The notes under the pieces were generated by a model, which ran no database searches, was not told the DNA's origin, and worked only from the letters and a program-made list of their open reading frames with translations. A DNA stretch of 64,000 nt from a virus. The translations under genes and the position numbers were made by a program. Positions within the stretch are counted from its first letter, which is position 1, and each line of letters opens with the position of its first letter. Shown here in pieces: positions 36,352 through 53,233 of this stretch. The DNA lies in IMG/VR virus record IMGVR_UViG_3300034104_003795, positions 209,998 through 273,997 of that record. One strand, 5' to 3'.

Positions 36352-36714
36352 TTAAGCCAATCCACCTTGTTGTTCAGCTAGTTGCTTTCTAGTTGGTGCA
36401 CCTGGTTGATATTGAATAACACCTTCTTTAAGGTTAATTCTCATTTGTGGATATTTTTCATCCAATTCATCAATTGTTTGCTTGATTTCTTCAGTTATTA
36501 GTTGAAACTCAACTTCTGATTTTGCAAGAACTTCATCAAGTTTAACAAGTTCAGCTTGTATTTCTTTTTTTCTAAGATATATTTGACCGAAATCGTTTAT
36601 AAAGATATTTTGTTTTTGATTAAGTTGTTCTAACTTTTCTTTAACAGAATCATCTATTTTTACAGATTCAATCTCAATACTTTGTTTTTGTGGAATGTTA
36701 TCTAATTCACTCAT
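36352..36714 (-). CDS. Small coiled-coil protein, paralogue of the gene at 41261-41539
   Basis: 120 residues, helical and charged to about residue 90 (VKEKLEQLNQKQNIFINDFG, LDEVLAKSEVEFQLITEE), then a short C-terminal beta motif: LDEKYPQMRINLKEGVIQYQ. The same ending (LQKKYPNGEINLADGTISYE) closes the 92-residue protein at 41261-41539, and both begin MS with a similar coiled coil, so they are paralogues. One lies on each side of the four-gene heptose operon. A late-type promoter motif precedes each. Function unknown. Confidence 0.75.
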   Translation of the reverse strand: MSELDNIPQKQSIEIESVKIDDSVKEKLEQLNQKQNIFINDFGQIYLRKKEIQAELVKLDEVLAKSEVEFQLITEEIKQTIDELDEKYPQMRINLKEGVIQYQPGAPTRKQLAEQQGGLA

Positions 36715-36757: not shown

Positions 36758-37510
36758 TTATTTTTTAAATACCGAAACTCCTTTTTCTTTTACAACTTCT
36801 CCGGCACAATAATTAGCCCAATCAATAGATTCTTCTACATTATTAGAATCCAAATACCTGGATACAAATCCGGCTACAAATGTATCACCCGCTCCACTTA
36901 CATCGGCATTTTGAATTCTTTTAGTTCCAATTATCTTACCTCTATAACTTGCTCCCCTACCGTCCAACGTAATGATACATTTATTATATAACCAATCAGT
37001 ATCTCTAATAATAGAATCATTATTTTGAGCTTCAAATCTGTTTATTTTTATAAAGGATGTGTTTTTACACCAATCACCTAAATGCTTTTTGGTATCTACT
37101 ATCGTAAATTTGGCCATAGATGATATCTTATCAATATCTTCTTCGGTTAGGAATCCCTTACAATAATCCGATATAACAACCGCATCATATTTTACCAAAT
37201 CCGGCAAATCGTAGATATCAATTCTATTTGTAGTATCATTTTCATCAACTCGCAAATATAATTCATTTGTATCTTTGTTTACATATCGTGTTTTAGTAAT
37301 ATTACCTTTATCAAAATATGTATCAACATCCAATCCCATAGCTTCTAAATTAGATGCTGTGTTGCCCGCCATTCCTTTACTCCAAACTTTTAATTCATCT
37401 ATTGGTAAGAAAACTGGTCCATTTCCTTCTGGAGATTTTCTACTTGTTATGCCATACCAAAAAATATCGGTACAAACCTCTCCAATAACTAAAACTTTAT
37501 ACTTACGCAT
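36758..37510 (-). CDS. PfkB-family sugar kinase, HldE kinase-domain-like (heptose-7-phosphate kinase)
   Basis: 250 residues. The family phosphorylates D-glycero-D-manno-heptose 7-phosphate at C1, a step towards ADP-heptose. It shows the HldE-type N-terminus (VIGEVCTDIFWYGITSRKSPEG, compare DRYWYGPTSRISPEAP in HldE), the PfkB glycine motif GMAGNTASNLEAMG, the DYCKGFL segment, and the C-terminal PfkB active site VSGAGDTFVAGF. It is shorter than the HldE kinase domain (about 315 residues), with loss in the middle. It overlaps the nucleotidyltransferase gene by eight bases. HldE is usually one bifunctional protein; here its two activities are separate genes. The phosphorylated sugar is inferred from the partner genes. 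Confidence 0.8.
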   Translation of the reverse strand: MRKYKVLVIGEVCTDIFWYGITSRKSPEGNGPVFLPIDELKVWSKGMAGNTASNLEAMGLDVDTYFDKGNITKTRYVNKDTNELYLRVDENDTTNRIDIYDLPDLVKYDAVVISDYCKGFLTEEDIDKISSMAKFTIVDTKKHLGDWCKNTSFIKINRFEAQNNDSIIRDTDWLYNKCIITLDGRGASYRGKIIGTKRIQNADVSGAGDTFVAGFVSRYLDSNNVEESIDWANYCAGEVVKEKGVSVFKK

Positions 37511-37892
37511 TATGTATTAAATTTGAAGTACTGAATCCTTCTATTTTTTCAAAGTATTTAATTTCTTTGGCAAATTCTTTACCTATTATTTTTTTATTCT
37601 TATACTCATCACCAATTACAAAAAAATCAGGATTGTATCTTTTAATTTGTTCTTCTAATTGTTTATCACTTCCAAATATTACAACTATATCAACACCTTC
37701 TATTTGCATTAAGTTAAACACTCTTTGACCTTCGGTATGAAAAGGTCTATCAGTTCCTTTTAGTTCTTTTACTCTAATATCAGAATCAATACCAATAACC
37801 AATTGGTCACCTAATGATTTTGCGTATTCAATTAGTTTAAAATGACCGTAGTGTAAAATATCAAAACAACCGTTAATCCAAACTTTTTTCAT
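37503..37892 (-). CDS. HldE/RfaE2-like nucleotidyltransferase (ADP-heptose synthase type)
   Basis: 129 residues. The family transfers AMP to heptose 1-phosphate to give ADP-heptose. It has the cytidylyltransferase site GCFDILHYGH (H-x-G-H), GIDSDIRVKELKGTDRPF, matching the LKGPxRP segment of HldE, and the C-terminal GFSTSNLI motif. The central IEGVDIVVIFGSDKQLEEQI also follows the HldE pattern. It is slightly shorter than stand-alone RfaE2/HldC proteins (about 160 residues). It overlaps both neighbours (eight bases with the kinase, one with the heptosyltransferase), so the three are translated together. A CDP-glycerol-type enzyme is the main alternative but the LKG motif and kinase partner favour ADP-heptose. 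Confidence 0.85.
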   Translation of the reverse strand: MKKVWINGCFDILHYGHFKLIEYAKSLGDQLVIGIDSDIRVKELKGTDRPFHTEGQRVFNLMQIEGVDIVVIFGSDKQLEEQIKRYNPDFFVIGDEYKNKKIIGKEFAKEIKYFEKIEGFSTSNLIHNA

Positions 37893-39049
37893 TATAAGAA
37901 TTTTTCCAACTCTTTTATTACCATTTCAGATGTAATACTTTTAGTACATTCAAATTGTCTTTCAGTATCTTTATGGTCAGGACACCAATTCCAATCACCG
38001 GCATCCAATTTAACTCTATTAAAACATCCTTCACATTTTCCGTCAGGTGCACCAATTCTAATACAATCTTCCATCTCTGCCCATCTATAAGAGAATCCAC
38101 TTATTAATACCGTTGGTACATCTAATGCCCAACTCAACCAACTCAAACCACTACCAATACCAATAAATGCTTTTGATTTTTTCATTTCATCCATTACTAA
38201 TTCAATTGGACCGTTTGGATGATGAATTACTCCTATTGGTAATTTATTTCCCATATAGTTATCACCTTCTTTAGAAAGTAATTTTACTAAATAACCCCTA
38301 CCAATCAACCAATCAACTACTTCTTGCCAACCGGTTGGATTGTTCCAAAATTTAGATTGCGCAGTACCATAAGTTGCAATACAAACCTGTTTAATATCAT
38401 TATCTATTTTTACAGGTCTTTGTTTTACTTTTGGTTTTATTTCTTTAAATTCTAACCCAAGTATATCAGAACACATTTTTTGCATTGTTACTGATTTTGG
38501 GTCTGCTGGATTTTTGAATCCATTTACCGAACCATTTTCATTATAAAATAGTCCAACCGAATACATCGCATATAAATTAGGAACAGGTGTACCAGGTTGT
38601 ACAAACTCAATATCAGGATATTCTCCTAAAAACATATCGTTCATAAAGGTAGATACTATTACTTCACATTTATGCTGCTTTTTAAATTCTTGTACATAAG
38701 GTATCCAGGCTAAACTATCTCCCAATGCTTTTGAATCCATTGCAATATAAACTCTCTTACCTTCGGCGTTAAATACCATACTATACCATTCTACGCCATT
38801 TTCGTAAATAACAATTTTCCATTCAATAAAATACTGAATACTACATCTACACCAACAATTGTTATCTATGCTTGTTGTATAGCAAATTTGACCGGTTTTA
38901 TTATTAATAAAATCAACTTTATAATTTGCCTTCTTTGGTCCTTTAATTTCTACAAAAGGACCATTAATAAAATGTATAAGTACATTGTTATTTATTTCCC
39001 TAATGCTTTTATTATTTTTTTTAAGATTATCGTAAATCATTAACTCCAA
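37892..39049 (-). CDS. Protein O-heptosyltransferase, autotransporter (TibC/Aah, BAHT) type
   Basis: 385 residues. This family transfers heptose from ADP-heptose to serines of bacterial autotransporter adhesins. The N-terminal beta domain (FINGPFVEIKGPKKANYKVDF, then WKIVIYENG) is the part that separates BAHT enzymes from LPS heptosyltransferases. The GT-B core has MDSKALGDSLAWIPYVQEF (the GDxLA motif) and IGIGSGLSWLSWALDVPTVLISGF for nucleotide-sugar binding. Near the C-terminus four cysteines (339, 342, 356, 368) match the iron-finger motif known in this family. It overlaps the gene before by ten bases. Substrate is inferred: the phage's own Ser/Thr-rich fibre proteins are the obvious candidates. 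Confidence 0.85.
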   Translation of the reverse strand: MELMIYDNLKKNNKSIREINNNVLIHFINGPFVEIKGPKKANYKVDFINNKTGQICYTTSIDNNCWCRCSIQYFIEWKIVIYENGVEWYSMVFNAEGKRVYIAMDSKALGDSLAWIPYVQEFKKQHKCEVIVSTFMNDMFLGEYPDIEFVQPGTPVPNLYAMYSVGLFYNENGSVNGFKNPADPKSVTMQKMCSDILGLEFKEIKPKVKQRPVKIDNDIKQVCIATYGTAQSKFWNNPTGWQEVVDWLIGRGYLVKLLSKEGDNYMGNKLPIGVIHHPNGPIELVMDEMKKSKAFIGIGSGLSWLSWALDVPTVLISGFSYRWAEMEDCIRIGAPDGKCEGCFNRVKLDAGDWNWCPDHKDTERQFECTKSITSEMVIKELEKFL

Positions 39050-41208
39050 GTTTTTACTGTTTGGTCTATAAGAGAATATCCTTCGGATTGTTTACAATAT
39101 ACTTTATTTGTTGTATATCTAAGCTTTGGTTCTTTGTAAAACACATCAGTAAGCCATAAATCAAATCCTTCCCACGGCGTATCATTGAATCTATCAATCC
39201 ACCATTGTTTAGTTCGATTTGGTATTAAGTATGCATGTGCTAAATCTTGATTTGCTGCAGTTTTACTGAATAGTTCATCAACTTTTTCTTTATTTCTAGA
39301 ACTATTATTTGCCAATCCAACATAGTAAACATCATCTCTTTCCGATATAAAACAAGCCTTATTTACTATATCCACAAATTCTTCTAAACCGGTATAAATA
39401 AATGCATCTGCTTCAAATATCAAAGTATAATCATATTCATCGCTCATTGTTTCCAAAGCCTTTCTATGAGCAGAAAAACATCCATAATGTCTGCCAGTTA
39501 AAGGTCCTAATCCATTTCCAAAATTACCAGGTTTATCTGATATATGTTCTGGTCTTTTACAATGTTCGGATGGTGGAGTTTGGTCATATGGTTTGTTTAC
39601 CATTGGTAGATAATCAATACCATATTTTGATAATTGTTTTAAAGATGCTCTACTCACTCTTTCTCTAACATCATCTGGTCTAGTTAATAGGTGTCTAACT
39701 TGTATTTTTGGTTTTCTACGAATAAATGAACGAAATCCTTCTTTAAATTGCCCATAGAAGAATTCATTTGCCGCTTGTGTAACTCCGTGAAATACACCAT
39801 AATCATCACCACTTACAATTCCACCTGGTTTAACTTTATTATACCAAAATTGTAAATCTTCTTTTAATGCATCGTAACTATGACCAGCATCTAACATTAT
39901 ATAATCTATACTTCCATTTGCAAACTGATTAGATGCATTTTTAGAAGTATCTTTAATCATATTGATATTATCATAGTTATCTGATAATATTGTGTTATCA
40001 ATAAATTCATAAAAGATATCACCATTAAATGAACCAACAATTGTTTGATGTATATCTTCATCATCAGTTCCTTTCCAAGTATCTACCGTTGTGAACTTTA
40101 TGTTCTTTTTAGATTCTCTAATTTTTTCTGCTAAATAATTTGTTGATTTACCAAACCATGCACCTACTTCTACAAACACATCATCATTTCCCGCACTTTC
40201 TACAACCTCATCATAAAGTTCTCTATATGCAAACCAACCAGGAATTTCATTAAATTCAGGTTGTAATTTTTCTAAAATAATTCTTTTGGTAAGTTTTAAA
40301 TCATCATTGATATAAGTTACCAATGAGTTATTATCGTATGTATCCAAATATGTATGTAAATTTCTAAAGATACATGGTAATTTATACGATAGTGCTTCTT
40401 TTATAGAAAGTGGATTTAATTCCAATATAGATGAAAAGTAAAAAAGGTCACATGCTGCATAGAATGTATCAACATCATCACGCTCTCCCCATATTACACA
40501 ATTTTCAGGTTTATGTTTCATTAAAGGTAACCAATAATGTTCATAGTTCATAGCTTGGTTTCCAACAAAGTGAAACTTAATTTTATATTTTTCTAATTGC
40601 CTAGCTATTGAAAATATTTCACCCTGATTTTTACCAGGTGAAAATAATCCAACCATTAAAACATGTTTCCATTCAGAATCTAATCCCAATTGTTGTTTTG
40701 CAATTTGTTTATCAAAAACATATTCACTAATAGGATATTCCCATAGAGTAGTTTCAACTCCTAAATTCGCTTCATCAAACTTTTGTTTACTCCATTCAGA
40801 AACCAAAACATAACGGTCTGGTTGATATATAATTTCAGATGGTGTTGTAAACGAACCATGTGTTGTTGCCAAAATAAAATAAGACCTATCCTTTGTAAAG
40901 ATACTATCTAAAACGTAGGTTGGTAAATCAAATTGTGGTATTTCTTGGAAATGTATAACATCTGGATTAAATTTTTCAATTACATCCAATATCTTAGTCT
41001 TATCCTCACCCAATGTGTGAACTACTGCTAATTTTTTTATTCTATTTTTTTGAACAACAAACGCATCACCGCCGCTGTTGTTTATTTCAACCACTTCAAT
41101 ATCGAAATCATTAACAAAATGTTCGATTTGTTTATAGGTGTATTGGGGCTGTCCTCCTGTTGATAAGTGGGGACAGACGTAAAGTAACTTTTTTCTTTCT
41201 GTTTTCAT
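39040..41208 (-). CDS. Trimodular GT-B glycosyltransferase / SAM methyltransferase / GT25-like glycosyltransferase
   Basis: 722 residues. Part 1 (about 1-305) is a GT-B glycosyltransferase: LLYVCPHLSTGGQPQYTYK, the GLFSPGKNQGEI motif, and ELNPLSIKEALSYKLPCIF, the donor-site E-x7-E region. Part 2 (about 325-485) is a class I methyltransferase with VFVEVGAWFGKSTNYLAEKI (motif I), TVDTWKGTD, and IDYIMLDAGHSYDALKEDLQFW plus GGIVSGDDY, like the cephalosporin hydroxylase/Methyltransf_24 group. Part 3 (about 500-722) resembles LPS glycosyltransferase family 25: GCFSAHRKALETM and LIFEADAFIY in the place of the usual GCFLSH and EDDA motifs. First gene of the heptose operon, behind a host-like promoter. 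Probably extends and methylates a glycan. Confidence 0.85.
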   Translation of the reverse strand: MKTERKKLLYVCPHLSTGGQPQYTYKQIEHFVNDFDIEVVEINNSGGDAFVVQKNRIKKLAVVHTLGEDKTKILDVIEKFNPDVIHFQEIPQFDLPTYVLDSIFTKDRSYFILATTHGSFTTPSEIIYQPDRYVLVSEWSKQKFDEANLGVETTLWEYPISEYVFDKQIAKQQLGLDSEWKHVLMVGLFSPGKNQGEIFSIARQLEKYKIKFHFVGNQAMNYEHYWLPLMKHKPENCVIWGERDDVDTFYAACDLFYFSSILELNPLSIKEALSYKLPCIFRNLHTYLDTYDNNSLVTYINDDLKLTKRIILEKLQPEFNEIPGWFAYRELYDEVVESAGNDDVFVEVGAWFGKSTNYLAEKIRESKKNIKFTTVDTWKGTDDEDIHQTIVGSFNGDIFYEFIDNTILSDNYDNINMIKDTSKNASNQFANGSIDYIMLDAGHSYDALKEDLQFWYNKVKPGGIVSGDDYGVFHGVTQAANEFFYGQFKEGFRSFIRRKPKIQVRHLLTRPDDVRERVSRASLKQLSKYGIDYLPMVNKPYDQTPPSEHCKRPEHISDKPGNFGNGLGPLTGRHYGCFSAHRKALETMSDEYDYTLIFEADAFIYTGLEEFVDIVNKACFISERDDVYYVGLANNSSRNKEKVDELFSKTAANQDLAHAYLIPNRTKQWWIDRFNDTPWEGFDLWLTDVFYKEPKLRYTTNKVYCKQSEGYSLIDQTVKTWS

Positions 41209-41222
41209 TCTAAAAATAATAT

Positions 41223-41254
41223 CAAATATACAAAATTTTTCTTAATCTACCAAA
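41223..41254 (-). promoter_or_regulatory. Host-like promoter TTTG-N20-TATATTTG for the heptose operon
   Basis: TTTG (41254-41251), exactly 20 bases, then TATATTTG (41230-41223), 14 bases before ATG 41208. The spacer ends in TTTTG, like the methyltransferase promoter. Because the four downstream genes overlap or abut, this one promoter would drive the whole ADP-heptose and glycosyltransferase set. Confidence 0.65.
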
Positions 41255-41260
41255 TTTATT

Positions 41261-41539
41261 TTAGGATTCATAAGAAATAGTACCATCCGCTAGGTTTATT
41301 TCACCATTAGGATACTTTTTTTGTAAATCTGATATGCTGTTTTCTAGTTTGAGTGCAAGTAAATCAAATTTTTCTTCGGTTTCTTTTTTAATAGCTTCGA
41401 ATTTTTCGATTTCAGTTTTAAACTCTCTTATTTTAAAACTTATTTCTCCCACTTGAAATATCAACATACTAAGCTCTGACTGAGTATTGTTTATGTAATC
41501 TAGTGTGTCTTGTGATAATTTTTCTTTAATTTGTGACAT
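41261..41539 (-). CDS. Small coiled-coil protein, paralogue of the gene at 36352-36714
   Basis: 92 residues. A coiled coil (LSMLIFQVGEISFKIREF, EKFEAIKKETEEKFDLLALK) ends in LQKKYPNGEINLADGTISYE, matching LDEKYPQMRINLKEGVIQYQ at the end of the 120-residue protein on the other side of the heptose operon. A late-type motif lies 17 bases before the start. No function can be named. Confidence 0.75.
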   Translation of the reverse strand: MSQIKEKLSQDTLDYINNTQSELSMLIFQVGEISFKIREFKTEIEKFEAIKKETEEKFDLLALKLENSISDLQKKYPNGEINLADGTISYES

Positions 41540-41555
41540 AATTTATTGTTTGTAT

Positions 41556-41563
41556 ATAAATAT
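41556..41563 (-). promoter_or_regulatory. Candidate late promoter motif (sense ATATTTAT)
   Basis: Sense context ATATATATTTATATACAAAC, 17 bases upstream of ATG 41539. The right flank (TATATACAAA) is shared with the C-variant copies at 33371 and 36742, extending the consensus for this subgroup. Confidence 0.55.
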
Positions 41564-41575
41564 ATATATTTTAAA

Positions 41576-43573
41576 TTATTCAAAAACAGCAGATGCACAA
41601 TTTCTACATATAGTTTCGTATGATTGTTTTATCTTTTGGATATGTTCTTCATTACCCCAAAAATCTCTTAATTCTTGTGTCTGTAAGTTTCCAAATTTAA
41701 AATCAAAATCATAATCGTTACAACATAGGAAAGCATCACCATTTGCGTTTACATGCACCCATCCGATTGGTCTACCACCAACTTCTCTACCATTACCACA
41801 ACCGATAACTTTTTTACCTTCATTGTTTTTCATTAAGTTTCGTTGTATCGCCGGACCGTTTGTTATAACTTCATCCAATAATCCCGCTCTATCAATAAGG
41901 TAAGGTACTGTGAATATATTTACACCAGGAAATAATTCTCTTGCTTTTTTCTCTTGCTGAACTAATTCTCCACTTTGTACATTTAAGTCAATATCCGATG
42001 GAAATTGCTCTCCTTTCTCTAACCATCCACCCTTATTACCAAACGATAATTCATGTACACCATTTATCTGAATAGAGAACGCCTTTCTTTGAACCATTTC
42101 AGGTAATTGCTCTACTGCGTATTTAATGTTTGATATTAATTTATCAAATTGTTTTATATTAATACCACTTCGTTTACTCCAAGTTTCTGCATCAAATGCC
42201 GGAGTATTTAAACATATACCACTTAAACAATCCTGATATTCTTTTAATATATCAACTTTTTCAGGTGTTAATGGAATACCATTTGAAAGTACCATTGTTA
42301 CCAATTTATACTTTCTACATATTTTTAATATTTCTTCAAAATGTGGATACAAAAGAACTTCGTTGTAATGTGCTGTATAGAATCCATTGAATGATTTACT
42401 AACCAATCCATCCGGTCTTTCTCTTTCATCTATAAGATTTTTTATAATTTTTTCAAATAGTTCCGGACTCATTACCGCTTTACCTTCGGTTGGATTGCCT
42501 TTATATTTTACAGGACAATACCAACACTTTGCATTACATACGCCATATGGGTCTATTTGTAAGTTTGTAATTTTATATTTGTTAAAATCATTTTTAATTT
42601 TACTCTCATCAGTTTGTTCAATTAAAATAGATTTATTTGCAGTTTCACATATTTCTTTCCAATAATAAGAAGAAGCATATTTTTCACTTATATTTAATGG
42701 TTCGTTGTATGGAAGTTTATCAGTAAAAGCTCCTTTATAAAATAAACCCTTTGAATACGAATGTATATGAGTTGAATCCGCTACAACTCCTGCATTGTGT
42801 AGTATAGGATATTTTTCTACTTCCGAAATATCACCAGTTACCCACCCAAAATCCAATCGTTCATCTACTATCGTTTCATGTCCCGCTAACCAAGCATTCC
42901 AAAGAAGTGCCCACATTCCCGCAGTCCATTTTTGTATTGGATAATCATATTCACTTTTCTTAACATGCAAATGTTCAGTATCACAAAAATATTTATATAG
43001 ATTTATACTATCGGTTTCTACTTTATCCCAAAATTCATATGTTGTGTTTTTAACAATATATTGTGCTCCACCTGAATTGTTATTTAGTAGTTTGGGTATT
43101 AACGGGTCTATTCCAACTATTTCACACATCTTTTTATAAATGTGTTCACCCTTACCTATTATATAATCATAATTTATATAAAATTTAGTATTAGATAAGT
43201 ACCAGCTATTACCCCTTATCATATCATCAAATTTGGGTGTCTTTGTCAAAACTATATCCGAATCATGTAAAAATAAAACATCATCTTGTATTTCAGTTCT
43301 TGCTGCAATATGTTGCTTCATCAAATTGAAATAAATAGATGGTTGATATCCTTTATCAGTTCTAGTATCATTATAAAAGAAAAAACGAACACTATTATAA
43401 TGTAGCATCAATTTTCGCCATTCGTCAGGAATTACACCATTTTCTATTCCACAAACTATATCAATGTAGTTTGGGTTTACTCCCATTTTTTTAAAGTTAT
43501 TAATTAAAACTTCAACTTGCCAAGTATAATAAGTGATTGCCGGTTGGCAACATATATAACGTAATTTTTTCAT
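41576..43573 (-). CDS. Glycosyltransferase fused to a radical SAM/SPASM enzyme
   Basis: 665 residues. The N-terminal 300 residues look like a glycosyltransferase with an acidic DxD site in LHDSDIVLT (Asp104 and Asp106) and acceptor-side motifs (NNNSGGAQYIV, HNAGV). The second half is a radical SAM enzyme: CNAKCWYCP gives the C-x3-C-x2-C cluster (Cys346, 350, 353), followed by the usual strand-helix repeats. A C-terminal SPASM-like region holds WVHVNANGDAFLCCND and a final CRNC (656, 659), which would bind auxiliary iron-sulfur clusters. SPASM enzymes modify peptides or sugars by radical chemistry. The gene lies directly behind the Thr-tract structural gene. The combined protein probably builds or alters a glycan or peptide on that protein; substrate is inferred. 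Confidence 0.85.
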   Translation of the reverse strand: MKKLRYICCQPAITYYTWQVEVLINNFKKMGVNPNYIDIVCGIENGVIPDEWRKLMLHYNSVRFFFYNDTRTDKGYQPSIYFNLMKQHIAARTEIQDDVLFLHDSDIVLTKTPKFDDMIRGNSWYLSNTKFYINYDYIIGKGEHIYKKMCEIVGIDPLIPKLLNNNSGGAQYIVKNTTYEFWDKVETDSINLYKYFCDTEHLHVKKSEYDYPIQKWTAGMWALLWNAWLAGHETIVDERLDFGWVTGDISEVEKYPILHNAGVVADSTHIHSYSKGLFYKGAFTDKLPYNEPLNISEKYASSYYWKEICETANKSILIEQTDESKIKNDFNKYKITNLQIDPYGVCNAKCWYCPVKYKGNPTEGKAVMSPELFEKIIKNLIDERERPDGLVSKSFNGFYTAHYNEVLLYPHFEEILKICRKYKLVTMVLSNGIPLTPEKVDILKEYQDCLSGICLNTPAFDAETWSKRSGINIKQFDKLISNIKYAVEQLPEMVQRKAFSIQINGVHELSFGNKGGWLEKGEQFPSDIDLNVQSGELVQQEKKARELFPGVNIFTVPYLIDRAGLLDEVITNGPAIQRNLMKNNEGKKVIGCGNGREVGGRPIGWVHVNANGDAFLCCNDYDFDFKFGNLQTQELRDFWGNEEHIQKIKQSYETICRNCASAVFE

Positions 43574-43596
43574 AACTTTTAAAATTAATTTTTATT

Positions 43597-45045
43597 TTAC
43601 AAACACAATGCACAATTAACTCCAATTGCAGAAGGAGTAAACAATATATAATTATTTGGTCCAGGATAAGCTCCTAATCCAACCACAGACCACGTTTCTC
43701 CAGCATAGGATACGCAACCAGGACTACTTCCCGCAATAGCCTCAAGTGTATATTGAGCTCCGGTATATGCTCCTGCACCAGTACAAGGTTCATAATCCCA
43801 ATATTCATATACAACAGCCGATGTTGTTGTTGTGGTTGGTGCAGATGGACACGAACTACAATTCGTTCCTACATAACTAGAACCATCACCCAAATCAATA
43901 TCAAATGAAGGACCAAATGTAATACCAGTTAATCTTACACAAACATATGCGGTAGCAGTTTCAAATACACTATTAACTACCTGGTCAACGGTAAATCTAA
44001 CAACACCGGCACTTATAGCAGTATCACAGTATTCAGCGCTAAAATAGAAATAAGATGGCCCTGCGGTTGTGGTTGTTGTAGTTGTTGGTGCAGCTGTGGT
44101 TGTTGTAGTTGTTAGCGGTGTTTCGCAACCATACGCTATACATTCCTCATATGATGTGTAAATACCATTTCCAGTTCCAACATTTGTACATGTACCAAGA
44201 ATACAATCCCAATCCAAAGATGCAGCTGCTGTTGTAGTTGTAGTTGTTGTAGGCGCTTCCGTAGTTGTAGTTGTTGTAGGCGCTTCCGTAGTTGTAGTTG
44301 TTGTTGCAGCTTCCGTTGTAGTTGTAGTAGTAGCTGCTTCCGTTGTAGTTGTAGTAGTAGCTGCTTCCGTTGTAGTTGTAGTAGTAGCTGCTTCCGTAGT
44401 TGTAGTTGTAGTTGGTGCCGCGGTTGTTGTAGTTGGTGCCGCAGTTGTTGTAGTTGTGGTTGTAGTTGTAGTTGTGGTTGTAGTTGTGGTTGTAGTTGTG
44501 GTTGTAGTTGTGGTTGTTGTAACAGAAAGACAAGTACCCTTATCGTTTAATACACCATCATTACTTATAATATAATAGTTTGTTCCATCTGAATAATATC
44601 CATTTGATGCAATCGTAGTTAATCCACTATTTGTAAAAAGTTTTGTACTTTCGGTTAGTGTTACTCCCCCATACGAATAATACGTTGTTGGGGAAAGTGC
44701 AAAATCATAACAAGAGTTTCCAGCAGAAGATGCATCATATCCTAAACTAAATGAAGATGGTGCTAATGTTGTAGTAGTTGGTGCGTTAGTTGTAGTTGTA
44801 GTTGTGGTTGTTGTAGTTGGTGTAAATTCACTAGTACCCATACAATCACTACTACCACCTTGTAAAAGTTCTATGGTTGCACCAGCTGGTGCTGCTATAC
44901 TACCGGGTTGTGCTTCTATCACTACCGAATTTAAAGTTTCACTTAAAAAAATAGATGGTCCAGTAAAGCCTTCACACTCTAACCAAGACACATTTCCACT
45001 AGTACTACTAGCTAACGTTACTCTATATATGTTTACAGTTGGCAT
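43597..45045 (-). CDS. Thr-tract (mucin-like) structural protein with Cys modules
   Basis: 482 residues. It begins with a beta domain (MPTVNIYRVTLASS, WLECEGFTGPSIFL), then alternates globular parts with long threonine tracts (about 76-92, 175-275, 315-330). The globular parts include SCYDFALSPTTYYSYGG ending in DKGTCL, a WDCILGTCTNVGTG...YEECIAYGC module, and two CxxC-containing beta modules near the C-terminus. Thr runs punctuated by Ala/Pro/Glu resemble mucin linkers and are typical of O-glycosylated stalks. I associate this architecture with tail-associated proteins of Bacteroidota phages. The gene lies 10 bases after the chaperone-like gene and 23 before the glycosyltransferase/radical SAM gene, which makes it the prime candidate substrate. 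Confidence 0.8.
   Translation of the reverse strand: MPTVNIYRVTLASSTSGNVSWLECEGFTGPSIFLSETLNSVVIEAQPGSIAAPAGATIELLQGGSSDCMGTSEFTPTTTTTTTTTTNAPTTTTLAPSSFSLGYDASSAGNSCYDFALSPTTYYSYGGVTLTESTKLFTNSGLTTIASNGYYSDGTNYYIISNDGVLNDKGTCLSVTTTTTTTTTTTTTTTTTTTTTTTTTTAAPTTTTAAPTTTTTTEAATTTTTTEAATTTTTTEAATTTTTTEAATTTTTTEAPTTTTTTEAPTTTTTTTAAASLDWDCILGTCTNVGTGNGIYTSYEECIAYGCETPLTTTTTTAAPTTTTTTTAGPSYFYFSAEYCDTAISAGVVRFTVDQVVNSVFETATAYVCVRLTGITFGPSFDIDLGDGSSYVGTNCSSCPSAPTTTTTSAVVYEYWDYEPCTGAGAYTGAQYTLEAIAGSSPGCVSYAGETWSVVGLGAYPGPNNYILFTPSAIGVNCALCL
44224..44520 (-). repeat. Threonine-codon tandem repeat (sense ACN runs, hexamer-like)
   Basis: Seen as plus-strand runs of gttgta/gttgtg, broken at regular spacing by gcttcc (Glu-Ala). 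The unit coding T6-E-A or T6-E-A/P recurs six to seven times. Because units are multiples of three, slippage or recombination here changes tract length without a frameshift. Two other reading frames also stay open, which explains artefact ORFs in this place. Confidence 0.85.
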
Positions 45046-45529: not shown

Positions 45530-48500
45530 TTATCTTGATAATACCACAAAATCAACAATTTCAGGTGACTGATGTCCTCCTAGATTACCACCGATATATG
45601 TTGTTGCAATACCAGGACTACTATGATTAGGTCTTTCTATTCTAAAAGAAAATCCAGTAGTACTTTTTCCAGTAATTACAGCAATACTTCCAACTTCCTG
45701 AGTAGCGTATGTTAAATTTGATGTTGTAAATAAAATAATATAATCATTGGAATCTAATGCGGTTGTAAATACGATATCATAGATATTGAATGACCCTATA
45801 CTAAATGAGGTACTAATATTATAACGATTTAGAATAGTATATTTTGTAGTATCAGTAATTCCTCCACCATTATATCTAATTGTTCCAAACGCTTTTACTG
45901 CTGGTGGGTATCCATATCCATTACTAAATCTGGATATTGCTCTATCCACCATTAAACTACCCGTAATTTCATTTGAGAAACTATAAGAACCACTTATACC
46001 ATCTCTTACTCTTAAATACTTATCATCTGCTAAAACGGCTTGGAAACCACCACCGTTTACAACAGTACCCGCGGATACCGTTTTTATTGTTATGGTTCCA
46101 GTAGAAGATAAAACAAAACTAGTTTCTGCTTCCGAATCAATTCCAAATGGCGGATATGATGGTAATGATGTATCTATACTTTGGTTTTGCACAACAACTC
46201 TTAAAGTTAAATAATATGTTACACCTTGTTGTAAATCCGCAATTAATGAAAATTTAGTCGCTGGTAGCTCCATTTGGGCTGCAGCCGCAAAGTAATATGT
46301 ATCCCAACCAAATCCATTCCAAACCTGATAAGTTTGTATGCTCCCATTTGCATATGCCGTTGCGTAATTTGATTGCCCAACAAATTCGGTAAAAAATTGC
46401 GGTGCATGGCCTGTTTTAGTTAGTTGTAAATTTACGTTTATACCAGCTGCCGCATCACCAGTAGCCCTTGCATAGCTGGAACCGTTAAATGGCATTGTGT
46501 AAGTTATAATGTGTTGTCCAGATGCTCCAGCGGTGAATGAACCTCCAGATGATGGTATTATATAATAGTCATAGGAAATAAGTCCGTAAGATGGAGGAGC
46601 ATATGTTCCATCATTTGGAACTGCATTAGTTTGTAATGACGAAGTTGATACAGTTGGTAAAGTTGCAGAAGAATATGTTACACCAGTTGGGGATGGTAGT
46701 GTTAATTGTGTATTTGCAAAGAATCTTAAACTACCAGAATCATCAAATACGGCAATAGATTCGGATGGGTCTGAATACAATTGTATATTTTGATTTGCTG
46801 ATATTATAGAACCTTCTCCGATTGTCCATCCACCAATCTGTCCATCATTTGAGCTAATTGAACCCTGAATGGTTAAATCTTCTCCATTCCAAATCAATGA
46901 ACCAGATGTACCTATTAAAGATACTTTTGGTTGAGATGCATCGAATCCTATAAAAATACCAGGATTATTAAATCCTTGCACTTGTGATTCCGTTACCCAA
47001 CTACCAGGACCTATACTAGAACTTATTTGTCCGATTGAAATGTATGGATTTGCATTTGAACCACTTTCATTTGCGTTAAGAACAATAAGTGCGTTTGCAC
47101 CCTTTGCACCAATATTGATACTTTTATCAACATATTGCTCAACTGCAAATAATACATCAGTTGCTACCGAACTAAATTGTGCACCAAATGTAGTCCAGTT
47201 TGCGTTTGGTGGACTGCCCCAAATTGTACCAAGTTGTCCATTCTTACTCGTATCATTTACCAAATAATAGGTACTACCTTGTTTTACAATATCTCTCCTT
47301 TCAGTTGTATGGAAATAATTTGTACTGGTACTAAAGAGACCTCTATATACTACACCGGCTCCGTTCGCTCCGTTTGTTCCACTTACGCCAGATGTACCAC
47401 TTACACCAGATGTACCTGCTGCTGCATATACTGACCAACTATTAGTTGCGTTTGGTGGATATCCTGTATCAATATTAGTATTATTTGTTGAAGTATGTGA
47501 AACTCCACAAATATAACTTGCTCCACCATATGTTACGGTATCATCTTCGTAATATGTTGTTGCAGTTTGCCAAGCTCCTCTAAAAGAACCTTCTGGTATT
47601 CCAGGTTGTCTTTGTCTAATACTACCAACTATCGTTAATTGGTCTCCATCCCAAAACATGCCTTTGCCAGATGTACCAGTTGTTTTAATTGAAAAACGTC
47701 CTGTTGTACCATTTGTACCATCTTCATATAATCCCAAGAAAACACCAGGTCTATTATATCCAATAATTCCTGGAGTTGTCAATGATGTTCCACTTGTACC
47801 CGCAGTTCCTTGTGTACCGGTTTGACCAATTGCAATGTATGGGTCTGGTCTTCCACCTGCAATTACAATATTTGCAAATGCACCACTACCATCTTTAGTA
47901 CCAACATTAATTGTATTCTTAACATATGATTCTTGGAATATTGCAATTTGTGCTGCAACAAAGAATTCTTCATTTCCTAAATACTGCCAATATGCATTAT
48001 CACTTGTTGTACCGGTTGGTGCTTGAATTCCTGCACCCGTACCAGGACCACTTTCTTGAATTGCACCATAGTATTGTGTTACGTTTCCATTTGTAGCAGG
48101 GTCTGGATGTATTACGGCATCTCTACGATTACCACTTATATCTGAACCTATGTAATCTATGTCATTTTTCCAAATTCCTCTCATCACAATTCCAGGTCCA
48201 GTATTTCCTTCATATTGAACCGATAACGATTGTGTTTTATATAAAAAATCTCTACCTTCGCAATCAATCTGATATACGATAAATGCGGTTTGATTTACTT
48301 CAGGATTTAACCATTGAGTAATTCCACCCATAACCGCGGGAGAACCACTTACAAATGAACCAGCGGTTAAACTTCCAGATAAAGTAATGTGCGCAGATTT
48401 TGCGTAAATACTTACTCTACATTTTTCTTTCCATCCGGCTTCACCATACATATCAGTATGAGTTTCTTGCCCTGCAATTAAAGAAGCACTATTAACTAGT

Positions 48501-51500
48501 TCAACATCACCTCTATAAACATTTATAGTTGTTGGTGTTAAATTGTATTCAATTTCACCAGATACACGATATATAATTGATGAGTTTTCATTTGTTAATG
48601 TTGCATTATATGGTGCAGGTGCAGTTATTTGAGAACTAAATGATTGTGAATAGAATTCAGATTTTCTACCATTTTCAAAATCAACTTTATAAACAACCGT
48701 TCCCGCAGTATTTACCGCCGGTGCTACCCATCCAGAAACATTTCCTATTTCAGCAGGATTTCCTAATAATCTATTCTGTGGATTTACAGTAATGTATGAT
48801 GACTTTGAATGTATAGATGCAGAATAATATCCTAAATTTCCAATTGGTAAACCGGAATTAGGTCCATATTCATAATATACAACTTGCGAAGAAACATACG
48901 AAGATGTGTGTATTAAAGGTACTCCTGCTTTAAATGCTCTAATTTGTGTTCCACTACCGGTAAAGGCAGTTTCCCATAGAGAAACTTGAATAGAAGTGTT
49001 TTCGTTTGTTACGTTTGCAGTAAAAGAATCCGCTCCAGCTTTTACACCAAATATAGTAATCTCATCAACCGCTCGTATTATATCAGATGCAGAACCATCT
49101 CTCATTTCAACTCTGAAAACTGCAGTTTCGCCTGCAGAAGTTGCATCGGAAGAACCAATGCTGATTTGGTCAGTAGTACTTATACCATAACCCAAATCTC
49201 CATATGTTGCAGAATCTGGATCGTACTTAAACCATTGATAAAATGCCTGTGAACTTGTTATATTAATTGGTGTTGCAGTAAACGTTATATCTCCAACAGG
49301 TGAAATAACTACCGTATCACCATCAAAGTTTACAGTGTTTGTACTTGTTGATAGTTTAACTGTTCTTGCTTTTACAGCATCCGAATTTTTAGTGAAACTT
49401 TGTGTTGCAAATAAATTAACCGAACCAGTTCTATGTCCCGGTAATAAAGAATATGGATATACTCTTAAATTATAGAAAGCACTTGCCGATACATACGGTG
49501 GTAAGAAGTTTGTATAATTCGCACTACCGATTCTCGTTGGTGTTGTAGAATTTGGAGATGAAATGGATGCCGTTTGTATGTTACTTCCAGTAATCGATTG
49601 GAAATACCAAGTACCTCTTTGTTGAGAACTCGTATATATTAGATACTCATTTCCTTCCTTTAATTGTATTGATGTACTAGCCGGTGCATATGTTCTTATA
49701 TATCCAGTTTCAAATGCGGATAATATTGCATTTTGTGGACTGATTAATATTTCAATTGGTGGTGCCCCATCAACCGCTTTGGTAAAGTTTTGAACTAAAC
49801 TTTGTGTATATTTTGATGAAGTGAAATATGGATGAATTAAGAGGTCATAAGTTAAACTCGCACTTAACTCAGTCATATTATTAATTCCAGTTAGTAATAA
49901 CGATGAGGTATTGTTAAAATCAACGGAACCGGTTGATATCATTGATTGTGTCACCGTATTTAACCAGAAATTACCAGGTTGCTTTGATGAACTAAATGCC
50001 AAATACCTTGCACCTTGTTTTAATTTCAATTCAGTATTTGCCGGTGTATATGTTGCAACATCTCCCTTTGCATTTGCATTTAATGTTACATTGGAAGGTG
50101 TCAATTCAAATACTATACTTTCATCACCAGGTTTACCTTCAGGTACAATAGTAAATGTTTTATCAATACTAATTTCGGTTAATGTGTAAGGTTCGGTATA
50201 AGTAAATGTTGCAACTAATACTTTGCTTTGAGATAACGGACTTCCAATAAACGCAGATGGTAATCTTGCAGGTAAACTTCTACCAGCTTCATCCGCTGCA
50301 ACAATTGATATATTGGAATCTTTACTTTGACTAACCCAATACAACCAATATTCTGGTGCAAAATCTGTATTAATTGACATTGATGGATATACCAAAATAG
50401 ATGCCGATATTGGATTCTCATTTGTACCTCTTAAATAAAACGATGCAGTTGCAGATGCGGATACCGGTCTAAAATCAGTTTCATTTCTAAAATTAATTGT
50501 AAAAGTATCGGTATTGTATGTCACAACCGGTGTATCAAGACCATCTTGCAAATCTTCTAAAATTTGTGATGCTAAAACCGATGCCGATGTATTAAATGCC
50601 CAATCCGATGCCGCTGATGCCGAAGATATTAAATAAATTGTTCTTCTCTTATCAATTGAATCTCTATTAAATGTTGCATTAAAATTAATTTCACCAGTAC
50701 CCAACGTACCTTTTGTCAATCCTTGAACAAATCCACTAGCGGATGCATATTGTAAATTTACAAATTTTTCAAAAGGAGCAGAACCGCTAAGTACGTGAAG
50801 TTGTATTAAATTCCACCCTCTATCTGGTCTTGAACCACTATAAAGTTCAATATCATTTATACCATCAATTCTTACTGCCTGAATTTCTAAAGATGCAGTA
50901 CTACTATTTCTAATTTGAGTTCCTCTATAAGGTCTAATAATATGATTAACTCCACCAAACCCATCTAATACTGCGGTGATAGTTACCGTATCGGTTACGC
51001 CTTCACACTCTCCCGTAAATGTTACCAACTGAACATCTATATCACTTCTACTACCAGTAAAATTCCCAACAGTTAAAACCGGTATATCTGGATTTGTTAA
51101 ATTTAATGTACCAGGAAATGTACCACCAGCATATTGCGATGCCGATAAAACATTTCCAAAGAAATCAATAGAAGATGATGTGAAGTTTACAGAACCAGTT
51201 AATAAAGTTTTTTGAATATTAAATGCAATTGCAGTTGGTGGTATAGGTTGCGAACCCGAATCAAATTGAAAATATAAAGAAGTTGGATTTAAACTTAATT
51301 TTTTCTCAATTCTTTGAATATTTCCACCATCAAATTCTTTAGATGCTTCTACATTAACCGGAATGTAATTACCATTTATATCATAAAATTTAAAAAGATA
51401 ATCAAATCTTTCAGATACCAAACTTCTAGGTACTGATTGTACCACCGTTAATTCGTTAGGTGAGAATGATGTTTCTTGAGATGCTTTAATACTAATATCT

Positions 51501-52969
51501 GAAATATACCATTCAGTTCCTTTTACATCTACATAAAGTTTTGCATTATCAATTTGTTCAGCTTCAAAATTTTCAGATATCAATACCTTTTGTAATACCT
51601 GATTATTTGCCTGAATTTTAGTAATCAGTTGTTGAACCGGAACTGTTACAGAAGGAAATGCACTTCCTAATGAATTTGAAGATTGTCTAGAACCACTTAT
51701 GTAAAACTCAATATAGTCATCGGTTGATGTTATAGATTTTTTTCTTACATTGAAATCCAAAGTATATTCTCCACCGGTATTTAAACTAAACGATTGCGTT
51801 GTATGGAAATACCCTACACCACTTGCAACATTTAGTTCGGCAGAATTATACAAATAATTTTGATTAAATGCTACCGTATTATTAGAAGATGATACCCAAT
51901 AGTTTGAAATTATATCACCGGTTAGGATACCATAATTTTCTTCATTCTTATCAGTAGTATTATAATCTTTTAATATTTCATTTGATTCTAACAATACCTT
52001 TTGAACAAACTCAAAATCGCCAATCTTTGACCTAGACTTTCGGTAGACATCAACCGATACAACATCACCAATAAAAGTTGTTAAATCAGATATTGTAATT
52101 TTTGCAAATGAGCCAGTTAATGCCGTTTTTAAATTAGAAGTACCTTCAAGATGTTGAAATGATGCGGTGTATCCTATATTATCAAAACTTTCTACGATAC
52201 CATTAATTGTATATGGGTCTGATGTTAGTACTTCTTTATTAGTAACTATTTGTGTAATTAGTGGATTATAGTTTAATCCCGGAACCGATAATCTTGTATT
52301 TAATACGGAACCCGTCCAATTGGTATTATCCTGTAAGGTTAATCTATATAATGTTGGTAATGTATAATCACTTAACTTTTGTCCAGATTGTGGAGTTATA
52401 GCAGTACCGTCCAAACTACCAGTTTGCACTATTGTTGGTATCGTTGTTGAAAACAAAGGTTTTACTAATTCATCAATTGTTACCCTAGGTCTTCTATAAA
52501 ATCTAACTCTATCTTCGTTGGCTAAAAGTTTATTAACTTTTATTGTTTTTTGCCACTTAACATTATATACACCCTTCCAATCATCCGGAATATCTCTTAC
52601 AACTTTACCATCATCCAAATATTCTTTAAGTTCACCTAAAATAGTAATAGTAGCATCTCCAATAGGAGTATCATCGTAAATATGTACCGATACAATCTTT
52701 GAAGTACCCTCATAGTATTCAGGAATACCATTACCAGGTTCCCAATATATAGGATTACCCTCAACATCCAAAATTTGTATTTTAATTTCGGTTGTTTCTT
52801 TTAAAAAAGGACTACCTTCTATTAGAAATCCATTTTTACCACCAGTAAATGTTTCTTTTAATTCGGTTATTCTGAAATATGTTGAGTTTGCATCGGTATC
52901 AGAAACAAACGTTCCGAAAGAACTAAGCGGTTGTGGTAATACTTCTCCGTATTTTTTTATCAATGGCAT
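45530..52969 (-). CDS. 2,479-residue modular tail/baseplate protein
   Basis: The N-terminus (IKKYGEVLPQPLSSFGTFVSDTDANSTYFRI) starts a virion-attachment part, with baseplate-like KTIKVNKLLANEDRVRFYRRPRVTIDELV near residue 180. The middle (about 350-1550) is many beta-sandwich units, including repeat pairs such as GYIRTYAPASTSIQLKEG and GDVATYTPANTELKLKQG near 1000-1170. Three chitin-binding-like R-G-x-W/F-x5-Y modules lie near residues 1593, 1796 and 1880 (FRGAWQTATTYYEDDTVTYG is the clearest). GTSGVSG triplets follow near 1850, IGGWTIG near 2047, and the C-terminal 400 residues are beta-rich. Overall it looks like a surface-exposed host-recognition or tail-spike-like protein. It starts behind a late-type motif shared with a divergent small gene. 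Confidence 0.8.
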   Translation of the reverse strand: MPLIKKYGEVLPQPLSSFGTFVSDTDANSTYFRITELKETFTGGKNGFLIEGSPFLKETTEIKIQILDVEGNPIYWEPGNGIPEYYEGTSKIVSVHIYDDTPIGDATITILGELKEYLDDGKVVRDIPDDWKGVYNVKWQKTIKVNKLLANEDRVRFYRRPRVTIDELVKPLFSTTIPTIVQTGSLDGTAITPQSGQKLSDYTLPTLYRLTLQDNTNWTGSVLNTRLSVPGLNYNPLITQIVTNKEVLTSDPYTINGIVESFDNIGYTASFQHLEGTSNLKTALTGSFAKITISDLTTFIGDVVSVDVYRKSRSKIGDFEFVQKVLLESNEILKDYNTTDKNEENYGILTGDIISNYWVSSSNNTVAFNQNYLYNSAELNVASGVGYFHTTQSFSLNTGGEYTLDFNVRKKSITSTDDYIEFYISGSRQSSNSLGSAFPSVTVPVQQLITKIQANNQVLQKVLISENFEAEQIDNAKLYVDVKGTEWYISDISIKASQETSFSPNELTVVQSVPRSLVSERFDYLFKFYDINGNYIPVNVEASKEFDGGNIQRIEKKLSLNPTSLYFQFDSGSQPIPPTAIAFNIQKTLLTGSVNFTSSSIDFFGNVLSASQYAGGTFPGTLNLTNPDIPVLTVGNFTGSRSDIDVQLVTFTGECEGVTDTVTITAVLDGFGGVNHIIRPYRGTQIRNSSTASLEIQAVRIDGINDIELYSGSRPDRGWNLIQLHVLSGSAPFEKFVNLQYASASGFVQGLTKGTLGTGEINFNATFNRDSIDKRRTIYLISSASAASDWAFNTSASVLASQILEDLQDGLDTPVVTYNTDTFTINFRNETDFRPVSASATASFYLRGTNENPISASILVYPSMSINTDFAPEYWLYWVSQSKDSNISIVAADEAGRSLPARLPSAFIGSPLSQSKVLVATFTYTEPYTLTEISIDKTFTIVPEGKPGDESIVFELTPSNVTLNANAKGDVATYTPANTELKLKQGARYLAFSSSKQPGNFWLNTVTQSMISTGSVDFNNTSSLLLTGINNMTELSASLTYDLLIHPYFTSSKYTQSLVQNFTKAVDGAPPIEILISPQNAILSAFETGYIRTYAPASTSIQLKEGNEYLIYTSSQQRGTWYFQSITGSNIQTASISSPNSTTPTRIGSANYTNFLPPYVSASAFYNLRVYPYSLLPGHRTGSVNLFATQSFTKNSDAVKARTVKLSTSTNTVNFDGDTVVISPVGDITFTATPINITSSQAFYQWFKYDPDSATYGDLGYGISTTDQISIGSSDATSAGETAVFRVEMRDGSASDIIRAVDEITIFGVKAGADSFTANVTNENTSIQVSLWETAFTGSGTQIRAFKAGVPLIHTSSYVSSQVVYYEYGPNSGLPIGNLGYYSASIHSKSSYITVNPQNRLLGNPAEIGNVSGWVAPAVNTAGTVVYKVDFENGRKSEFYSQSFSSQITAPAPYNATLTNENSSIIYRVSGEIEYNLTPTTINVYRGDVELVNSASLIAGQETHTDMYGEAGWKEKCRVSIYAKSAHITLSGSLTAGSFVSGSPAVMGGITQWLNPEVNQTAFIVYQIDCEGRDFLYKTQSLSVQYEGNTGPGIVMRGIWKNDIDYIGSDISGNRRDAVIHPDPATNGNVTQYYGAIQESGPGTGAGIQAPTGTTSDNAYWQYLGNEEFFVAAQIAIFQESYVKNTINVGTKDGSGAFANIVIAGGRPDPYIAIGQTGTQGTAGTSGTSLTTPGIIGYNRPGVFLGLYEDGTNGTTGRFSIKTTGTSGKGMFWDGDQLTIVGSIRQRQPGIPEGSFRGAWQTATTYYEDDTVTYGGASYICGVSHTSTNNTNIDTGYPPNATNSWSVYAAAGTSGVSGTSGVSGTNGANGAGVVYRGLFSTSTNYFHTTERRDIVKQGSTYYLVNDTSKNGQLGTIWGSPPNANWTTFGAQFSSVATDVLFAVEQYVDKSINIGAKGANALIVLNANESGSNANPYISIGQISSSIGPGSWVTESQVQGFNNPGIFIGFDASQPKVSLIGTSGSLIWNGEDLTIQGSISSNDGQIGGWTIGEGSIISANQNIQLYSDPSESIAVFDDSGSLRFFANTQLTLPSPTGVTYSSATLPTVSTSSLQTNAVPNDGTYAPPSYGLISYDYYIIPSSGGSFTAGASGQHIITYTMPFNGSSYARATGDAAAGINVNLQLTKTGHAPQFFTEFVGQSNYATAYANGSIQTYQVWNGFGWDTYYFAAAAQMELPATKFSLIADLQQGVTYYLTLRVVVQNQSIDTSLPSYPPFGIDSEAETSFVLSSTGTITIKTVSAGTVVNGGGFQAVLADDKYLRVRDGISGSYSFSNEITGSLMVDRAISRFSNGYGYPPAVKAFGTIRYNGGGITDTTKYTILNRYNISTSFSIGSFNIYDIVFTTALDSNDYIILFTTSNLTYATQEVGSIAVITGKSTTGFSFRIERPNHSSPGIATTYIGGNLGGHQSPEIVDFVVLSR

Positions 52970-53056: not shown

Positions 53057-53233
53057 ATGAAAAAATACGCTATGATTCAAATTGATGCTGAAATACATCA
53101 ACTTTTGAAAGAGTTTTGTAAAGAGAAAGGATACAAAATAAATGGGTTGGTGGAAACCCTTATAAAAGAAAAGGTAGAAGCTTCAAAGAAACCTCTACCT
53201 AAAAATATATTACCAGTTAGTTCTAGAACTTAA
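53057..53233 (+). CDS. Ribbon-helix-helix-like small DNA-binding protein, the only plus-strand gene
   Basis: 58 residues, ATG 53057 to TAA 53233. After a short lead (MKKYA) comes MIQIDAEIHQLLKEFCKEKGYKI and then NGLVETLIKEKV: one strand and two helices separated by a glycine turn, as in Arc/MetJ-type ribbon-helix-helix regulators, which bind DNA as dimers through the strand. The tail is short and basic (KKPLPKN). The coding pattern is good despite the small size. It is divergent from the 2,479-residue tail gene (87-base gap) and overlaps the end of the SbcD-SbcC gene convergently by 11 bases. Its place fits a regulator of the neighbouring promoter or of phage timing; the target is unknown. 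No clear ribosome binding site is seen. Confidence 0.7.
   Translation: MKKYAMIQIDAEIHQLLKEFCKEKGYKINGLVETLIKEKVEASKKPLPKNILPVSSRT

Follow-up and report, generated by a model that had tools for sequence, protein, structure and literature searches.

A phage glycosyltransferase of the TibC/Aah family and its likely link to collagen-like Gly-Thr-Ser repeats of virion fibres

What does a phage modify when it carries, in one compact block, a glycosyltransferase of the BAHT type (the family of TibC and Aah), a second, family 4 glycosyltransferase (GT4) and two enzymes resembling those of ADP-heptose synthesis, and with which sugar? The question is raised by a 64,000-nucleotide stretch of DNA, bases 209998-273997 of the 274-kb viral record IMGVR_UViG_3300034104_003795 (the window), in which four such genes (the cassette), all on the minus strand, overlap by 1 to 10 bases (Table 1). 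The DNA is that of a phage, since it comes from a viral contig 274 kb long in which a T4-type terminase gene adjoins the region; the virus is a large aquatic one. A preliminary description made without database searches had correctly placed these overlapping genes and, directly upstream, a glycosyltransferase-like (GT-like)/radical S-adenosylmethionine (SAM)-SPASM fusion and a protein with threonine tracts, and had read the whole as a fixed set for ADP-heptose synthesis and heptosylation of the phage's own Ser/Thr-rich fibres. Protein O-glycosylation of virion fibres is, judging from the sequences, still the best reading of the cassette. We consider it likely that the BAHT O-glycosylates collagen-like tracts of the phage's own fibres, that the GT4 gene product extends or caps the sugar, and that the heptose-type (hld) genes top up the donor.

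The gene at 37892-39049 belongs to the TibC/Aah (BAHT) fold family. In a hidden Markov model (HMM) search its product scored 271.6 bits against TIGR04414 (Aah/TibC heptosyltransferase; cut-off 200) and at most 24 bits against models of lipopolysaccharide (LPS) heptosyltransferases, and a PDB sequence search returned TibC as the sole match (185 bits); Pfam TibC_1st matched weakly (E 0.095). According to Foldseek, its AlphaFold model (pLDDT 84) aligns with TibC (4RAP) at a TM-score of 0.83 over 374 columns, along the full length and including the N-terminal beta domain (strands 22-92, pLDDT about 96), against a TM-score of about 0.4 for the LPS enzyme WaaC. Asp-110, Thr-226, Lys-230 and Trp-305 (TibC numbering), the first catalytic and the others acting on the sugar-phosphate in TibC (PMC4358343), are kept in 81/81 family members, as are the four cysteines of a predicted iron finger. 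The enzyme therefore is a BAHT and not an LPS heptosyltransferase, as the preliminary description had proposed; the HMM comparison it had set, the tree described below and the fold agree on this, the matches to GT9 models being weak and the fold not WaaC-like.

Could the cassette nonetheless modify host LPS or another surface polysaccharide, for instance for superinfection exclusion? The rfaE and glycosyltransferase genes of aquatic myophages (pelagimyophages) have been interpreted in this way (PMC7029224), and the kinase/nucleotidyltransferase pair is present in cyanophages that have no BAHT. However, the transferase is of a protein O-glycosyltransferase family rather than of the WaaC/WaaF type, lies in a structural gene block and goes together with a protein repeat both in phages and in bacteria, and we regard LPS modification as quite improbable.

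The protein repeat in question is a collagen-like tract of Gly-Thr/Ser-Ser triplets. The phage encodes four large fibre-like tract proteins with 653 Gly-x-y triplets in total, in which 84% of the residues after Gly are Thr or Ser and 77% of those in third place are Ser. One of them (15498-19658, inside the window) holds 38 G[ST][ST]G motifs. In a scan of this protein and two of the others (the fourth has 3729 aa), all three had matches to Collagen in Pfam and to tail-fibre families in PHROGs, with Peptidase_S74 at the end of one. The strand-loop-strand acceptor repeats of TIGR04415 gave no match anywhere in the 274-kb record.

To see how far tracts and BAHTs go together, we took 30 viral contigs, each 50 kb or longer, on the sole criterion of G[ST][ST] tracts. 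A BAHT is present in 19 (18 above the TIGR04414 cut-off), and 14 of these 19 carry a tract within 6.6 kb of it. No BAHT was found in 31 contigs selected by a DNA pattern for Gly-Pro-x (22 of them longer than 47 kb; some of the pattern matches may be chance GC-rich sequence) or in 13 immuto-like contigs. Fisher's test of tract against Gly-Pro-x contigs gives 2e-8, or 9e-7 with only the 22 longer ones, kinship being ignored in both. Tracts number 177 in this phage, 240 in a 136-kb relative, 12 in Microcystis phage Mel-JY01, 1446 in a 735-kb phage and 0 in immuto, which has no BAHT, and a reversed control pattern has 0 matches in all phages counted. The phylogenetic tree, whose root is unplaced, puts the autotransporter-type BAHTs (100/99) and the window family (100/100) in separate clades; the 19 BAHTs of the tract-picked contigs are scattered outside the window phage's clade, and the bacterial BAHTs with GTSG-repeat neighbours, described next, form one clade (100/99) among phage sequences. 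Two side observations belong here. The BAHT of one tract-bearing phage (L386) is above the family cut-off and appears in the alignment to miss the four finger cysteines, through either a degenerate finger or misalignment. A contig binned as a Rickettsiaceae metagenome-assembled genome (MAG; L088) looks like phage; in it, the gene for a BAHT joined to a further domain adjoins that for a fibre-like protein of the GTSG/GSSG kind.

The closest bacterial counterparts of the phage BAHT (44-50% identity) are found in Methylobacter, Methylomicrobium and a Polaromonas MAG, and the gene beside each encodes a GTSG- or GTAG-repeat protein, mostly with a signal-peptide-like start. The genomes surveyed were 301 from the Methylobacter/Methylomicrobium order, 399 from the order to which the Polaromonas MAG belongs and 399 from the phylum. 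Bacterial BAHTs fall into two kinds by bit score: a GTSG-repeat protein, in varying orientation, adjoins 9/10 loci of the kind scoring roughly 305 bits and 0/16 loci of the autotransporter-type kind (480-660 bits), three tested neighbours of which carry TIGR04415 strand-loop-strand repeats. Of the nine genomes of the first order that have a 305-bit BAHT, six match a strict GTxGTxGTxGTxG DNA pattern, versus 6/292 others, and all listed matches to it in four genomes (G004, G053, G150 and G225) adjoin the BAHT. Two methanotroph genomes, G002 (C22:58607-58788) and G136 (C1:2579024-2579250), have strict GTSG tracts far from the BAHT, possibly additional acceptors. Since Thr or Ser stands at 90% of the positions following Gly in the bacterial neighbours, the residue after Gly is our first guess for the acceptor. 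These patterns suggest that BAHTs act on collagen-like Gly-Thr-Ser repeat proteins in many viruses and in some methanotrophs. They also bear on the idea that the glycosyltransferases modify phage DNA for restriction evasion, as phage glycosyltransferases often do (discussed in PMC12619734): BAHTs act on protein, and the protein repeat also stands beside the BAHT in bacteria, where no phage DNA is involved, which leaves this idea very improbable indeed.

Which partners accompany the BAHT was determined in 80 related viral loci (77 of them assessable for the kinase and nucleotidyltransferase). The GT4 fusion gene lies directly upstream of the BAHT in 79/80, too constantly for a chance pairing. 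The preliminary description had called its product a three-domain glycosyltransferase; three domains it has, but only in part of that nature, namely GT4 (PF00534), a SAM methyltransferase (Methyltransf_24, PF13578) and a weak GT25-like domain (PF01755) that is below the Pfam cut-off in every relative tested. A GT4 homologous to it is found near the BAHT in 15 of the 19 unrelated phage contigs, and a GT4 is fused to the BAHT in Mel-JY01, the 735-kb phage and several other contigs. The Mel-JY01 protein labelled 'methyltransferase FkbM' (L083:4747-8430) is such a GT4...BAHT fusion of 1227 aa, with the BAHT at residues 859-1220; it illustrates how phage BAHT genes stand in databases under automatic or wrong labels, another being 'Glycosyltransferase Aah/TibC' in UniProt (uncultured phage). 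Kinase and nucleotidyltransferase genes occur together in 27/77 loci, the nucleotidyltransferase alone in 11 and neither in 39 (so that the nucleotidyltransferase is found in 38 and the kinase in 27), and in relatives lacking both the next gene (homologous to 36352..36714) starts 53-76 nt past the BAHT. Only about 5/80 relatives have a recognisable Thr-tract protein close to the cassette, and only 3/80 have the GT-like/radical SAM fusion. Homologues of the N-terminal domain of the latter occur near BAHTs in three unrelated phage contigs (L515, L518 and L527), and the fusion may therefore belong to the wider system. As the BAHT and GT4 are constant, fused or nearby in unrelated phages, while the hld genes and the Thr-tract protein vary, the functional core is BAHT plus GT4.

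These counts also decide the place of the Thr-tract protein (43597-45045). Its Thr tracts, its adjacency in the window and the overlap of the kinase and nucleotidyltransferase genes with the transferase gene would fit a cassette that heptosylates this protein and nearby Ser/Thr-rich fibres, the phage enzymes completing ADP-heptose. The BAHT and GT4 fusion persist, however, where the Thr-tract protein is gone, and the kinase and nucleotidyltransferase are often missing in relatives; we hold this version to be improbable and, given the poor conservation, reject the protein as main acceptor, although it could be one extra acceptor. The (Gly-Thr/Ser-Ser)n collagen-like fibre proteins appear the likelier acceptors, because their tracts track the BAHT across unrelated phages and bacteria and the Thr-tract protein is rare. 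The proposal that the phage decorates its own fibres thus survives as protein O-glycosylation, with a different target.

The two heptose-type genes were rightly recognised as HldE-like, both having their best matches in this family, below the cut-offs. The kinase matches TIGR02198 (HldE kinase domain) best in NCBIfam (92.8 bits, cut-off 345), keeps the GAGD, SDY.KG and TK.R motifs, is about 50 residues shorter than HldE in the alignment, and gives an AlphaFold model (pLDDT 88.9) whose best PDB matches are HldA (4E84/4E8Y). The nucleotidyltransferase matches TIGR02199 (HldE nucleotidyltransferase domain) at 110.9 bits (cut-off 181.5). Like the cyanophage homologues (S-SM2, S-SSM7, P-SSM2) and HldE/HldA and HldC-type enzymes, the pair is adjacent, with motifs kept and an HldA-like fold; unlike them, the window genes score below equivalog cut-offs, the kinase is shortened and they are joined to a BAHT. 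As the preliminary description had noted, the isomerase GmhA is not in the window; its suggestion that it might lie elsewhere in the phage genome found no match (SIS_2, PF13580) in the 274-kb record, which may be incomplete. The phosphatase GmhB had no match in the phage by a single phmmer query, no HMM search for it having been made. A second nucleotidyltransferase, most similar to glycerol-3-phosphate cytidylyltransferase, is encoded elsewhere in the phage genome (L098:4095-4526), as is a sugar epimerase/dehydratase (L098:17991-18839). In MAGs of the Gram-positive Lachnospiraceae (L092:2121-6394, L093:454-4760) a BAHT adjoins genes for a full-length HldE, a GmhB-like HAD protein and an HldD-like epimerase. 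With both genes missing in 39/77 relatives and the kinase in 50/77, ADP-heptose synthesis is an optional extra rather than the cassette's core, and the notion of a fixed synthesis-and-heptosylation set falls.

Several observations weigh against the fibre tracts as BAHT acceptors or against a heptose donor. Eleven of the 30 tract-bearing contigs, two of them longer than 140 kb, show no BAHT, and one 636-kb BAHT phage has 0 tracts. Common ancestry and habitat inflate the association of BAHT and tract, and the viruses of the Gly-Pro-x control set may have different hosts. In the window's own family the tract genes sit elsewhere in the genome, not beside the BAHT. Finally, the position of TibC Arg-286, which contacts adenine N1 and is required for TibC activity (PMC4358343), is Val in 81/81 family members (alignment).

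This last substitution touches the donor. All 81 members also have Gly in place of TibC Pro-300, a residue involved in stereoselectivity (PMC4358343), and because of these two changes the use of ADP-D,D-heptose, assumed in the preliminary description, cannot be transferred from TibC to the phage BAHT. The Arg-286 position is aliphatic in the GTSG-linked bacterial BAHTs as well. The idea that loss of this arginine marks the GTSG acceptor was considered and rejected, several tract-bearing phages keeping Arg. It is conceivable, if rather unlikely in our estimate, that the acceptor is right and that this branch transfers another sugar or nucleotide than ADP-D,D-heptose: the Arg-286 position is V/I/L/M/T in most of the branch, the Pro-300 position is G or S, and many relatives have no heptose genes at the locus. 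Yet HldE-like kinase and nucleotidyltransferase genes overlap the BAHT in 27/77 relatives, which indicates a heptose donor, and T226, K230 and W305 are kept, as is Arg-286 in some tract-bearing phages. A bolder proposal, which we put forward tentatively as a possibility on the doubtful side, is that the viral-dominated TibC branch changed both acceptor and donor recognition. It would glycosylate collagen-like repeats of Gly-Thr/Ser-Ser, the nucleotide-sugar perhaps not being ADP-D,D-heptose, and the dense O-glycan would stiffen or stabilise collagen-like fibres free of hydroxyproline, both in phages and in secreted methanotroph proteins.

Glycosylation of the fibre tracts by the BAHT could proceed as follows. 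The TibC/Aah-type enzyme would move a heptose-type sugar onto Ser/Thr of (Gly-Thr/Ser-Ser)n tracts in the giant fibre proteins, in the cytoplasm and before virion assembly; the product of the overlapping GT4/methyltransferase gene would lengthen, methylate or cap this sugar; and the HldE-like kinase and nucleotidyltransferase would top up the activated sugar when host supply is limiting, many relatives managing without them. The resulting fibres might be protected, stiffer, or altered immunologically or in receptor recognition. The assignment of function by association is strong; the transferase activity, the identity of the sugar, the acceptor residues and the purpose are what we infer.

Table 1. 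Genes of the cassette and its surroundings, and candidate acceptors, in the window
Feature	Coordinates	Strand	Remarks
GT4-methyltransferase-GT25-like fusion gene	39040..41208	-	cassette, directly upstream of BAHT
BAHT-type (TibC/Aah) glycosyltransferase	37892..39049	-	N-terminal beta domain, GT9-like catalytic domain, Cys4 finger
HldE-II-like nucleotidyltransferase, accessory	37503..37892	-	TIGR02199 best match
Short HldE-I/HldA-like sugar kinase, accessory	36758..37510	-	TIGR02198 best match
GT-like domain (phrog_4417) + radical SAM-SPASM fusion, accessory	41576..43573	-	domain matches
Thr-tract protein, 482 aa, 38% Ser+Thr	43597..45045	-	possible extra acceptor, rarely conserved
2479-aa fibre-type protein beside cassette	45530..52969	-	few GTSG triplets and CBM_5_12; weaker candidate acceptor
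1386-aa collagen-like tail-fibre-type protein	15498..19658	-	GTSG/GSSG tracts; candidate acceptor inside window
Conserved gene directly after cassette, boundary marker	36352..36714	-	position in relatives

The chitin-type CBM_5_12 module of the 2479-aa protein stands exactly at the Pfam cut-off. Further along the window (53223-56369), a 1048-aa protein joins SbcD-like phosphoesterase and SbcC/SMC-like parts in a single chain.

Glycosylated collagen-like Gly-x-y proteins are familiar from Bacillus (BclA) and from the collagens of mimivirus, where other enzymes and sugars are involved and no BAHT is known to take part. With the known BAHTs (TIGR04414; PMC4358343) the phage enzyme shares whole-length homology, the beta domain, the GT9-like core, the Cys4 finger and D110/T226/K230/W305, and bacterial members likewise have their gene near the presumed acceptor. 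It differs from them in its separate branch, the loss of R286, the replacement of P300 by G, its frequent fusion to GT4 in phages, and its tie to GTSG collagen-like repeats rather than to TIGR04415 autotransporters. For mycobacteriophages, the part of PMC12619734 that cites Freeman et al. (2023) describes glycans on the C termini of capsid and tail-tube proteins; there phage-encoded glycosyltransferases decorate structural proteins, and here a BAHT would do so on collagen-like fibre tracts, as judged from the genes. Literature searches on GTSGTSG repeats, phage BAHTs and phage ADP-heptose (bioRxiv and most subscription journals lying outside the search) returned nothing describing such a system and no paper linking BAHTs to phage structural proteins or GTSG repeats. 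The full set does seem undescribed in phages, as had been suggested; cyanophages were already known to carry kinase/nucleotidyltransferase pairs, without a BAHT. The TibC fold is known, and the acceptor class is probably new.

BAHTs have so far been defined by a single acceptor class, the autotransporter adhesins, and a large, mostly viral branch of the family now appears tied to GTSG collagen-like repeats. Such repeats are common in phage fibres, and no modification of them was found in the literature searched. If our reading is true, many phage fibres would be heavily O-glycosylated, which would change the view of their receptor binding, stability and recognition by antibodies. It offers a testable function for phage glycosyltransferases that are usually taken as LPS- or DNA-modifying, as well as a first idea on the role of the methanotroph GTSG proteins, and with Microcystis phage Mel-JY01 there is a BAHT-carrying isolate that makes the claim directly testable on virions.

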